NCBI GenBank assembly: GCA_030429205.1
Contig: JAUICZ010000001.1
Location: 548,806-612,805, forward strand
Source: Bacteroidia bacterium
Lineage (GTDB): Bacteria; Bacteroidota; Bacteroidia; Chitinophagales; Chitinophagaceae
Direction of reading: 5' to 3'
DNA: 64,000 nt
Positions 25,858 through 28,593 of the stretch are shown in pieces; position 1 is the stretch's first letter; each line of letters opens with the position of its first letter. The notes under the pieces are model-generated. The model saw only the letters and a list, made by a program, of their open reading frames with translations. It did not search any database and was not told the DNA's origin. The position numbers were made by a program, and so were the translations under genes.

Positions 25858-26511
25858 TTACCCCGCCAACTCATTAATATCCTTGTTCTCCAAATGGGTT
25901 TTGTCGCTACCGTTAAGCGCTACCTGTATCATGGCTTTACCTACTTTAATGGTATCAGTTACTGAAGAAGACATCGCCATTAGCGGGAAGAACGGGCGCA
26001 GTATCACATAAAAGAAATTGTATAATCCTGTTTTAGACTTAACACCTCTTTTAGGCAGTATCACTCCAGGGCGGAACATGTATGCTTTTTTGAACGGCAT
26101 TTTTAGTAAGGCATTTTCTGTTCTGCCTTTTACCCTTGCCCACATCATACGCCCCTGTTCTGTACTATCGGTACCGATACCAGATACATAGGTGAAAATC
26201 ATGTTCGGGTTCACTACCGTTTCTGCAAAATGAATCGTCAGGTCGTAAGTAAGTTGTGTATACTTCTCTTCGCTCATACCTGCGGCAGAAACACCTAAGC
26301 AAAAGAAACAAGCATCGTACCCTTGTAGCTGCTCTTTAATAGCAGACAGGTTGTAAAAGTCTTTATGTATGATCTCCTTGAGTTTAGCATGTTCTATGCC
26401 TAAAGCAGAACGGTTCACTACTAATACCTCTGTAATACTTTCGTTATCCAGACATTCCAGCAAAACACCTCTGCCTACCATACCTGTACTACCTGTGATG
26501 ATGACTTTCAT
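25858..26511 (-). CDS. NAD(P)-binding Rossmann-fold protein
   Basis: A 217-residue atypical short-chain dehydrogenase-like protein. The N-terminal 'VIITGSTGMVGRGVLLECL' is a GxxGxxG nucleotide-binding loop. 'VLVVNRSALG' follows, then 'CFFCLGVSAAGMSEEKYTQLTYD' and 'IFTYVSGIGTDSTEQGRMMWARVKGRTENAL', where Lys replaces the usual YxxxK arrangement. It belongs with the NAD(P)H-binding / HTATIP2-like epimerase relatives, mostly of unknown substrate. It is transcribed away from the ArsR terminator and meets the small acidic gene tail to tail with no gap. A weak TACCTTTA box sits just before the start. Confidence 0.8.
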   Translation of the reverse strand: MKVIITGSTGMVGRGVLLECLDNESITEVLVVNRSALGIEHAKLKEIIHKDFYNLSAIKEQLQGYDACFFCLGVSAAGMSEEKYTQLTYDLTIHFAETVVNPNMIFTYVSGIGTDSTEQGRMMWARVKGRTENALLKMPFKKAYMFRPGVILPKRGVKSKTGLYNFFYVILRPFFPLMAMSSSVTDTIKVGKAMIQVALNGSDKTHLENKDINELAG

Positions 26512-26530
26512 AGTAATAAAGGTATAATAA

Positions 26531-26556
26531 AAAAGCCCTCATATAATAAGGGCTTT
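26531..26556 (-). terminator. Terminator of the SRPBCC-arsR operon
   Basis: An 8-bp stem (AAAGCCCT / AGGGCTTT) with a 9-base loop is followed on the minus strand by a T run. It lies six bases after the ArsR-like gene stop. Confidence 0.75.
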
Positions 26557-26561
26557 GAAAC

Positions 26562-26894
26562 TTATGTTTGATCGAGAAACTTGCCGAGGTCATCGAGCTT
26601 GGTATCCCAAAACTTGTCGTAAAAGGCTATCCAGTCTTTCACTTGTTGCAGTTGTTGCGGGTACGCAATACAAAAACGCTCCCTGCCTTTGGCTCGTGTT
26701 TTCACCAGCCCGGCATCTTCCAACATTTTGATGTGCTTTGTCACACCCTGCCTGCTGATGTCGAACTGTTCTGATATTTGCGTCATGGACATGGCTGTAC
26801 CCGCCATTACCAATACATGAAATATCTCTCGCCTGTTGGCATCTGCTATTGCTTTGAATATTTTATTTACCGTGTGCTGCTTCGACTTCTTCAC
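26562..26894 (-). CDS. ArsR-like winged-helix transcriptional repressor
   Basis: A 110-residue winged-helix protein with 'FKAIADANRREIFHVL' (helix 1), 'SMTQISEQFDISRQGVTKHIKMLEDAGLVKT' (recognition helix region) and 'RAKGRERFCIAYPQQLQQVKDWI'. No metal-binding cysteine pair is seen; the single Cys is in the wing-strand region, so metal sensing is unlikely. The gene overlaps the upstream SRPBCC gene by 32 bases in another frame. SRPBCC-ArsR pairs are a known arrangement in which the repressor controls its own operon. Two palindromes over the operon promoter at 27323-27380 are the probable operators. Confidence 0.88.
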   Translation of the reverse strand: MKKSKQHTVNKIFKAIADANRREIFHVLVMAGTAMSMTQISEQFDISRQGVTKHIKMLEDAGLVKTRAKGRERFCIAYPQQLQQVKDWIAFYDKFWDTKLDDLGKFLDQT

Positions 26895-27306
26895 CAGCTA
26901 AATATTTATCAAGATGTTCAATACATTTATCCCAACCGCCATTGAAGCTCTCAAACATCTTAATGGCTGTTTCTTCGTTCGGATAACCACTCACGCCGGA
27001 GTGCTCCAAAGTTAATAATGTACCACCATCTTTTTCTTCCAGCTTCCATGTTACAGTAGTTACCGTCTCGGTACCTGCAACTATCCAGGTATACACCAGT
27101 TCATTCACGGGGTTTACTTTTAGTATCTCCCCGCCTATTTGTTCACAATTGTCATTCTCGCTCAGCAAACTGTATCTGTAGCCTACCTCTGCTTTGAAGT
27201 TACACTTAATGAACCATTGAGATATTTTTTCCTGTTCTGTAATTGCTGCCCATACATCGTTGATGGGACTGTTGTAATGATGCTGTTTCGTTAATACGTC
27301 TTTCAT
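26863..27306 (-). CDS. SRPBCC/AHSA1-domain protein of the ArsR operon
   Basis: A 147-residue protein of the START-like SRPBCC fold: 'INDVWAAITEQEKISQWF' at the start, 'GEILKVNPVNELVYTWIV' in the middle and 'GGTLLTLEHSGVSGY' plus the C-terminal helix 'SFNGGWDKCIEHLDKYLAG'. The fold has a deep cavity for a hydrophobic ligand, and AHSA1-type members often sit beside ArsR regulators. The ligand is unknown. It is the first gene of the operon and its promoter is covered by two palindromes. Confidence 0.87.
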   Translation of the reverse strand: MKDVLTKQHHYNSPINDVWAAITEQEKISQWFIKCNFKAEVGYRYSLLSENDNCEQIGGEILKVNPVNELVYTWIVAGTETVTTVTWKLEEKDGGTLLTLEHSGVSGYPNEETAIKMFESFNGGWDKCIEHLDKYLAGEEVEAAHGK

Positions 27307-27322
27307 TGTTTTATAGTTTTAC

Positions 27323-27338
27323 GCAACTGATTGGTTGC
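27323..27338. promoter_or_regulatory. Putative ArsR operator O1
   Basis: GCAACT-GATT-GGTTGC, an imperfect palindrome (5 of 6 pairs) preceded by TAC. It overlaps the end of the -7 box of the SRPBCC-arsR promoter. The second copy is centred 42 bases away. Confidence 0.6.
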
Positions 27339-27368
27339 AAATATAGATTGAACATTCTTAATACGCAA
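27338..27368 (-). promoter_or_regulatory. Promoter of the SRPBCC-arsR operon
   Basis: On the minus strand TTG (plus 27366-27368), a 20-base spacer and TATATTTG (plus 27338-27345) match the Bacteroidota pattern, 31 bases before the ATG at 27306. Confidence 0.65.
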
Positions 27369-27380
27369 CTTTTTAGTTGC
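27365..27380. promoter_or_regulatory. Putative ArsR operator O2
   Basis: GCAACT-TTTT-AGTTGC, a perfect 6-4-6 palindrome sharing the flank TACGCAACT with O1. It covers the -33 TTG of the promoter. Centre-to-centre distance to O1 is 42 bases, about four helical turns. Confidence 0.65.
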
Positions 27381-27471
27381 CTATTTTTATTATTGACTAA
27401 GAATTCACCGGTACGAATACTTATCCTTAGCCTTAAAAATTTATATCTTGTTGCTTCCAAAACAGATTTAG

Positions 27472-28593
27472 ATGTCAGTAACGATAAAGCCTTGTGATAC
27501 GGTCGCAGACCTGAAGAAATTTGTACAATTCCCATACAATCTGTATAGCAGTAATAAGTACTGGGTACCACCGATGAAGAAAGATGAGCTTAACTCATTA
27601 CAACCATCTACCAACCCTGCATATAAGCATTGCGATGCACAATTTTGGATAGCGCTGAAAGATGGTAAAGTAGTCGGCAGGATCGGTGCCATTATCAACA
27701 AAGCCTATAACGAGCAGGTGGGCACTAAACTGGGCCGTATCTCCCGCCTAGAGTTTATCGACGATAAAGAAGTAAGCAAAGCATTACTGAATACTGCTGA
27801 AAGCTGGATAAAAGAGCGTGGTATGGAAGGCGTGCATGGTCCGCTGGGCTTTACCAACTTAGACCACCAGGCGGTAATGATAGAAGGACACGACCATTTA
27901 CCATCCATCGCATCAGAATACCACTTACCCTACTATAAAGAGCATTTAGAAGCGGCAGGCTACGAGAAAGAGATGGACTGGGTAGAGTTTCGTTTGAAGC
28001 TGGCAGATGCTATACCTGAGAAGGCGCTGAAGCTGAATGAGATGATCAAGAAGCGCTATAAGCTGAAAGTGGTACACTTTACCACGCAACAACAATTGAA
28101 AGAACAGGCATCGCGCGCGTTCGATTTGTTGAACAATGCTTTTGGCGAGCTCTTCAGCTTTGTGAAGATGGACAAGGAGCTTTCTGATTTTTACATCAAT
28201 AAATACTTCAGCATACTAAACCCTAAGTTTGTGAAGATGATCGAAGATGAGAACGGCGAACTGATCGGGTTCATTATCAGCCTTCCGTCGCTTAGCGAAG
28301 CCATGCAAAAAGCAAAAGGGAAACTATTCCCGCTGGGTTGGTGGCATATTATGCAGGCATTAAAAAAGCCAAAAGTGGTAGACTTACTGTTAACAGGTAT
28401 TCACCCCGACTGGCAGGCAAAAGGTGTGAGTGCCATACTCATTACCGAGCTGCAAAAAGTAATGTTCGAACATGGTGTAACGCACGTAGAGACTACCGGT
28501 ATTATTGAAACGAATGAAAAGGCCATCAGCCACTGGAAAAACTACGACCATATACAGCACAAGCGCAAACGCTGCTTTAAGAAAATGTTTTAG
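27472..28593 (+). CDS. GNAT-like acyltransferase-fold protein (BcerS-like)
   Basis: A 373-residue protein that resembles the large BcerS-like GNAT proteins: 'YWVPPMKKDELNSL' and 'NPAYKHCDAQFWIALKDGKVVGRIGAI' at the start, 'GISRLEFIDDKEVSKALLNTAESWIKERGM'-type helix (residues 80-120) and 'GVHGPLGFTNLDHQAVMIEG'. A second GNAT-like half has 'LIGFIISLPSLSEAMQKAKGK' and 'LLTGIHPDWQAKGVSAILITELQ', the usual acyl-CoA loop position. The substrate is unknown. The 3' end of the gene is partly repeated 628 bases downstream as a pseudogene remnant. Confidence 0.75.
   Translation: MSVTIKPCDTVADLKKFVQFPYNLYSSNKYWVPPMKKDELNSLQPSTNPAYKHCDAQFWIALKDGKVVGRIGAIINKAYNEQVGTKLGRISRLEFIDDKEVSKALLNTAESWIKERGMEGVHGPLGFTNLDHQAVMIEGHDHLPSIASEYHLPYYKEHLEAAGYEKEMDWVEFRLKLADAIPEKALKLNEMIKKRYKLKVVHFTTQQQLKEQASRAFDLLNNAFGELFSFVKMDKELSDFYINKYFSILNPKFVKMIEDENGELIGFIISLPSLSEAMQKAKGKLFPLGWWHIMQALKKPKVVDLLLTGIHPDWQAKGVSAILITELQKVMFEHGVTHVETTGIIETNEKAISHWKNYDHIQHKRKRCFKKMF

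Follow-up and report, generated by a model that had tools for sequence, protein, structure and literature searches.

How is a two-gene operon that encodes an SRPBCC protein and an ArsR-family repressor switched off and on, and what do the two palindromes in front of it contribute? The question arose in a 64,000-nucleotide stretch of DNA from a Bacteroidia genome, referred to below as the window. A sequence-only reading had described the two palindromes as paired operators of a self-controlled operon and had proposed that the encoded repressor binds them cooperatively. The features on which the argument depends are as follows.

26863..27306, minus strand: SRPBCC/AHSA1-domain protein of 147 aa, first gene of the operon (Pfam AHSA1, 77.5 bits, cut-off 22.1)
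26562..26894, minus strand: ArsR-family winged-helix repressor of 110 aa with a GTG start, second gene (HTH_20, NF033788)
26532..26556, minus strand: intrinsic-terminator-like hairpin directly 3' of the ArsR gene, from the terminator scan
27365..27380, minus strand: operator 1, GCAACT-N4-AGTTGC, right arm containing the -33 TTG; predicted binding site
27323..27338, minus strand: operator 2, read as GCAACC-N4-AGTTGC along the operon strand and spanning roughly -5 to +11 relative to the predicted start; predicted binding site
27338..27345, minus strand: -7 box TATATTTG of a Bacteroidota-type promoter, read from the sequence, with the consensus from PMC6847099
27366..27368, minus strand: -33 TTG, 20 nt before the -7 box, read from the sequence
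27333, minus strand: predicted transcription start inside operator 2, placed by the usual distance from -7 box to start

The operon runs from the SRPBCC gene to the ArsR gene and on to the hairpin, and the two genes overlap by 32 nt. The terminator scan of positions 26300-27700 marked two terminator-like sites, compared with 0.9 expected from shuffles. The product of the first gene is a member of the SRPBCC/AHSA1 family, and its relatives by sequence in the PDB were CalU16 (the best), BH1534 and YndB. CalU16 is a protein from the calicheamicin gene cluster. The product of the second gene belongs to the ArsR/SmtB class of winged-helix repressors: it scored 49 bits against HTH_20 (cut-off 27) and 64.8 bits against NF033788 (cut-off 55), 3f6o was its best PDB match by sequence and by fold, and CzrA was also among the best folds. 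With 48.6 bits against a cut-off of 100, it was below the curated threshold for SdpR (NF033789). The structure model of the ArsR protein was of moderate confidence (mean pLDDT 67.8), with about 83 around a predicted helix at residues 48-60. The neighbours of the operon in the window are a GNAT gene, which is divergent and starts at 27472, 91 bases from operator 1, and NAD(P)-binding genes.

Re-reading of the sequence confirmed the palindromes, their coordinates, their common flank and their 42-bp distance. On the operon strand the palindromes read GCAACTAAAAAGTTGC (27380-27365) and GCAACCAATCAGTTGC (27338-27323), each 16 bp long and 42 bp apart, and both share the flank TACGCAACT on the plus strand, at 27320 and 27362. 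The 6-bp arms of the site at 27365 are perfect, and the site at 27323 has one mismatched pair (ACT vs GGT). The available excerpt of PMC6847099 gives TTTG / TANNTTTG as the Bacteroidota promoter consensus, numbers the last G of the -7 box as -5, and describes a -33 motif far less evident than the -7 box in Flavobacterium data. The spacer between the -33 TTG and the -7 box in the window is 20 nt, and the last G of the -7 box (27338) is the first base of operator 2. These positions make the -33 TTG a part of operator 1 and let the G of the -7 box open operator 2; the earlier placement of one site on the end of the -7 box and the other on the -33 TTG thus matches the coordinates.

The ArsR protein very probably represses its own two-gene operon, with one dimer per palindrome, both promoter boxes blocked and release by a signal; judged from the sequence, occlusion of both boxes is the likely means of self-repression. 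Each 16-bp palindrome would hold one ArsR dimer: at operator 2 the dimer would cover the -7 box and the start site, at operator 1 the -33 box, and RNA polymerase would be excluded at both contacts. Release of the repressor, and with it synthesis of both proteins, would follow a putative signal; a small molecule, hydrophobic or reactive and also handled by the SRPBCC protein, is a plausible candidate. The operon would be its own whole regulon. The recognition helix would read the letters of the sites, Gln49 going with the C at arm position 2 and Lys53 with the C at position 5.

The word GCAACTN4RGTTGC occurred exactly in the 3.64-Mb genome at these two sites only, and 20 further places matched it with one mismatch. 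Counted by strand over the whole genome, exact and one-mismatch matches came to 35, compared with 2 when the pattern was reversed; this control includes CG pairs, and its count may be too low. Ten of the 20 one-mismatch places were read in context; nine fell within open frames 90 aa or longer, and one (L007) fell between frames. Within the window, four strand matches (the two sites) with at most one mismatch were found where 0.65 were expected, and 3 of 100 shuffles reached four. Pairs were also scored by a cost, the sum of mismatches within and between both palindromes. The window pair has a cost of 2; dinucleotide shuffling of 181 upstream regions, 3620 shuffles in all, never gave a pair that good. 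Commonness of the word pair at random positions had been set beforehand as the finding that would count against the operators, and there is no third exact copy genome-wide.

A search for further sites that might define a regulon had also been proposed. Of the 44 genomes that have the operon, 40 (all but G737, G815, G967 and G970) were searched for exact matches to the extended site GCAACYN4AGTTGCRTA. Of 57 occurrences, 56 were just upstream of the operon; the other, in G691, preceded a second SRPBCC gene. The reversed pattern gave none in all 40 genomes. Five of the 40 genomes had no exact extended site, and exact-match searches miss weaker sites. For exact extended sites, the regulon appears to be this one operon. 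The second SRPBCC gene of G691 (L199, G691:C4:181635-185653) is 57% identical to that of the window and has the exact extended site upstream. No ArsR gene was detected behind it at E up to 0.01, and a short ArsR-like start was visible by eye only. The operon proper of G691 (L159) keeps one site only.

Homologues of the ArsR protein were found in 189 of 294 genomes of its own family (f1) at E up to 1e-12; the best match listed after the window itself had an E of 4e-27 and 41% identity, and none listed exceeded 49%. The nearest relatives were in another family of the class (f5), where 43 of 397 genomes had a match at E up to 1e-28 with 50-64% identity. When the SRPBCC protein was searched against the 294 own-family genomes at E up to 1e-18, two matches were found besides the window, at 32-35%. 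A scan for relatives in the contigs of named genomes gave only two weak Nesterenkonia loci. The window and 42 f5 loci were treated as one group of 43 operons, which form one side of a branch on the ArsR tree (support 96; a quick tree with few columns and some long branches), where the window adjoins L159 (support 88). By tblastn the SRPBCC gene came first in all 43 loci, and a profile search found an SRPBCC gene upstream in 42 of the 43.

A site pair at a cost of at most 5 was found in 40 of the 43 group operons, at a distance of 42 bp in 29, 41 bp in 10 and 39 bp in one. L159 and L198 have one good site each and no good pair, and in L170 the second site has decayed. Among the 29 operons at 42 bp the mean pairwise identity was 0.88 for each operator, compared with 0.69 between them, 0.65 downstream and 0.37 in the upstream 30 bp. 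The sequence-only reading had made conservation before orthologous operons a test of its proposal, and the proposal withstood it, with 39 of the 42 f5 operons keeping the pair.

Many of the fetched f5 stretches share a genomic place: 31 of 42 contain a divergent thioredoxin gene, and in 17 of 42 a dnaE-type gene (DNA polymerase III alpha) lies downstream on the opposite strand. On their thioredoxin side, 20 of the 42 f5 loci had a ClpP-type gene; L179, L176 and L168 are examples of the shared place. The GNAT and NAD(P)-binding neighbours of the window had no match in any of the 42 stretches, and the f5 place is not that of the window. Since the neighbours differ and the sites are kept, the sites travel with the operon and not with its neighbours. 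The window operon may plausibly have been acquired by horizontal transfer from a source resembling f5, given the lack of an equally close match in the 294 own-family genomes, the other neighbours and the position of the window next to L159; the alternative is loss elsewhere.

The pairing of these two families has another possible explanation, in which ArsR and SRPBCC form a toxin-antitoxin-like or antibiotic-resistance module and the operators are the usual autoregulation of such a module. Makarova and others paired ArsR with COG3832 (Aha1) as toxin-antitoxin-like, although the available excerpt of their paper (PMC2701414) judges resistance likelier than a true toxin-antitoxin system, and CalU16 as the best PDB sequence match of the SRPBCC protein points in the same direction. 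However, most f5 copies sit at the shared place beside the thioredoxin gene, unlike mobile modules, and the same excerpt counts such pairs mostly on chromosomes. We regard the module explanation as unlikely and retain self-repression in answer to a signal.

The wider family was used to see what fixes the distance between the operators. Besides the group, a pair at a cost of at most 5 was found at 80 of 111 f1 loci (29 listed loci besides the window, 80 more further down the list by score and two loci of the own genome) and at 18 of 27 phylum-wide loci; 2.5% of shuffles reached that cost. Loci at the ends of contigs, including G120:C506, G183:C34 and G967:C22, were skipped. All but one of the distances in these other pairs were 24-29 bp, mostly 26, and the exception (L113, 46 bp) looks spurious. 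Two of the 27 phylum-wide loci (L154 and L156) repeat f1 loci and were dropped; with these and the L113 pair removed, a pair was present in 95 of 136 other homologues. At some loci, such as L020, L024 and L033, a lone palindrome of this kind took the place of a pair. An SRPBCC gene was beside the ArsR gene at 93 of the 111 f1 loci and at all 25 of the others. The own genome contributed two further ArsR matches, L014, the nearer paralogue, and L015. L014 (G000:C4:526831-527130, outside the window) is a paralogous SRPBCC-ArsR operon whose pair, GAAACCAAAAGGTTTT and GTAACCTTTTGGTTTT, is 26 bp apart and has letters unlike those of the window pair.

Both classes of operon are anchored to the promoter boxes. 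In 39 of the 40 paired group operons and in 89 of 95 others, a TA begins 7 bases ahead of operator 2; two-base shifts of TA were also common in the others (45 and 56 of 95), as expected from TATATA runs. TTG is inside operator 1 in 39 of 40 group operons, whereas in the others operator 1 begins just after TTG, which occupies positions -4 to -2 before it in 80 of 95 and was found at most four times when shifted by 1-3 bases. The -7 box of the group was TAnnTTAG, one letter off the consensus, in 32 of 40 operons and the full TAnnTTTG in 7 of 40, including the window, and a looser automatic search placed it elsewhere in 5 of 40; the box assignment is therefore good but not perfect. The operator distance in the group equals the box spacer plus 22, with spacers of 20 (29 operons), 19 (10) and 17 (one). 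Spacers in the other operons were 20 (63), 18 (15) and 19 (4) among 82 scorable cases, 13 being not scorable. On the ArsR tree there is a single change of spacing class.

These distances bear on the proposal that two dimers bind cooperatively, with 42 bp placing them on the same face of the DNA and the distance kept for that reason. The distance is 41 or 42 bp in 39 of the 40 paired group operons, close to four turns. However, both sites lie on promoter boxes, and a 19-20 nt separation of the boxes is by itself enough to give 41-42 bp; the relatives at 24-29 bp, mostly 26, are at about 2.5 turns; and a gap of 26 bp between the palindromes would be a long reach for direct contact between small proteins. 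All 10 scorable cases with operators 28 bp apart retain a box spacer of 20, so the operators are set by the promoter boxes and whole helical turns are not needed. Because the distances follow the boxes, the "four DNA turns" are not evidence for cooperativity, and the argument drawn from 42 bp is weakened. Cooperative binding is thus rather improbable as the reason for the distance, and occlusion of each box by its own dimer is the arrangement that we prefer.

To relate the repressor to its sites, the ArsR recognition helices (residues 45-58, DISRQGVTKHIKML in the window) were aligned with the operators of 136 paired operons. L197 was unreadable at residues 49 and 53, leaving 135 operons for the counts. 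With Lys or Arg at residue 53, arm base 5 was C in 115 of 115 operons; with Leu, Gln or Val it was not C in 20 of 20, although two of these pairs (L113 and L119) are spurious or shifted. Pro at residue 49 went with T at base 2 in 58 of 59 operons and Gln with C in 57 of 58, and base 2 was mixed in the 18 operons with Thr or Ala. Taken together, Gln49 with Lys53 gave GCAAC arms (43 of 43), Pro with Lys GTAAC (51 of 52), Gln49 with Leu53 GCAAG (13 of 14) and Pro with Gln GTAAG (4 of 5). Gln49 and Lys53 were invariant in all 42 readable group proteins. The structure model places the two residues one turn apart at the start of predicted helix 48-60.

The residue-letter prediction was fixed before the results from 67 held-out loci of families f24 and f17 were seen. 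A pair was found at 42 of the 67, and the rule held in 39 of 42 for residue 53 and in 40 of 42 for residue 49. The misses were L245 and L286, whose pairs look spurious, and L273, with Asn53 and GTAGC arms. The test covered new operons and not new families, because the first set already included other f24 and f17 loci. In a tree from which the recognition-helix columns had been left out, supported branches gave only one independent pair per rule, and shared descent may inflate the residue-letter correlation. Arms of GTAG instead of GTAA were seen in L080, L271 and L273; residue 50 is Thr in L271 and L273, and L080 has Ala at 50 and Thr at 49. A third position of the recognition helix may also be read. 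Loci L274-L286, with the helix MPA(I/V)(S/T)KHLKVL, had no credible pair (12 of 13 had none, and one had a weak pair that is probably spurious).

The tracking of letters 2 and 5 by residues 49 and 53 ties the encoded ArsR protein to the sites. Ownership of the sites by another regulator or by the divergent GNAT gene is very unlikely: the GNAT start is 91 bases from operator 1 and the genome has two further ArsR matches, but the GNAT gene was matched in none of the 42 fetched f5 stretches and L014 has its own, different pair. That the palindromes are RNA hairpins or a terminator is an explanation we set aside almost entirely, since the scan does mark 27365-27380 on the plus strand as terminator-like, yet orthologs retain the arm letters despite drifting flanks, the letters follow the helix of the repressor, and operator 1, being upstream of the predicted start, would not be part of the operon transcript. 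The core of the earlier proposal, self-control by the ArsR protein that the operon encodes, is well supported by the conserved pair, the near-exclusive extended site and the letters that track the helix residues.

As for the signal, Cys75, within GRERxCxA, was invariant in 42 of 42 readable group proteins and was Cys in 134 of 136 others, and it is a candidate thiol sensor. His26 and His54 were likewise invariant in 42 of 42, and His26 was found in 12 of 136 others. The SRPBCC partner is a candidate ligand handler, and its ligand may be the inducer, as the sequence-only reading had suggested.

We lean, by a small measure, towards a broader picture in which Bacteroidota carry a large set of insulated one-operon ArsR-SRPBCC switches locked at both boxes. 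Their specificity would be given by a two-residue, two-letter code (residue 49: Gln for C, Pro for T; residue 53: Lys or Arg for C, Leu or Gln for G), many copies would coexist without cross-talk, and the window would belong to a subgroup whose operator 1 became the -33 box. In the open-access literature searched, neither paired operators nor a residue code had a paper devoted to them for ArsR-SRPBCC regulators; relative to that literature the double-box architecture and the residue-letter rule appear new, and the kind of system is known. Such pairs are widespread, 280 adjacent pairs having been counted and their purpose called puzzling in the available part of PMC2701414. The comparative evidence defines precisely how operators and promoter are laid out in Bacteroidota ArsR-SRPBCC operons, and it predicts the ArsR residues that set the letters of the sites. 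If the code is true, sites could be predicted for many uncharacterised regulators, and mutually insulated Bacteroidota reporters could be designed.

Several known systems resemble the window operon. The metal sensors CzrA and SmtB have the fold and the repressor class in common with the window ArsR protein. The usual metal sites of ArsR/SmtB proteins are a Cys pair and a His in the last helix. These were absent from the group, in which 41 of 42 proteins have a single Cys and no His is conserved beyond residue 54, and for this reason the group falls outside the usual definition of a metal sensor. The group may have an unusual metal site, with His26, His54 and Cys75 invariant.

The ArsR-COG3832 (Aha1) modules of Makarova and others (2009, PMC2701414) combine the same two families in a stable two-gene operon, and their ArsR proteins lack metal-binding motifs, as here; the excerpt of that paper gives no operator, promoter or recognition rule. 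The Bacteroidota ArsR operons with sites 24-29 bp apart belong to the same family, mostly have an SRPBCC neighbour and carry N4 pairs on the same boxes. They differ in being mostly ArsR first, whereas the window operon is SRPBCC first, and usually in the arm letters.

Rv2034 of Mycobacterium tuberculosis is an ArsR autorepressor that protects CCGTAAGT-N4-ACTTACGG, is not released by the metal ions tested and has a partner with a polyketide_cyc2 domain, according to the available excerpt of PMC3338718. By that account the Rv2034-Rv2035 operon has the ArsR gene first (by gene number), whereas the SRPBCC gene is first in the window; it has a single footprinted palindrome, in contrast to two predicted sites, one per promoter box; and Rv2034 is reported to activate other genes too, whereas the regulon in the window is apparently one operon. 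Both systems place an ArsR gene and an SRPBCC-type gene in one operon with an N4 inverted repeat at the promoter. The arms of Rv2034 are GTAAGT, and GTAAG is the arm of one of the four residue combinations described here. As far as that excerpt goes, Rv2034 is the nearest experimentally tested case and a precedent for the proposed self-repression, and the window operon is of a kind already known.
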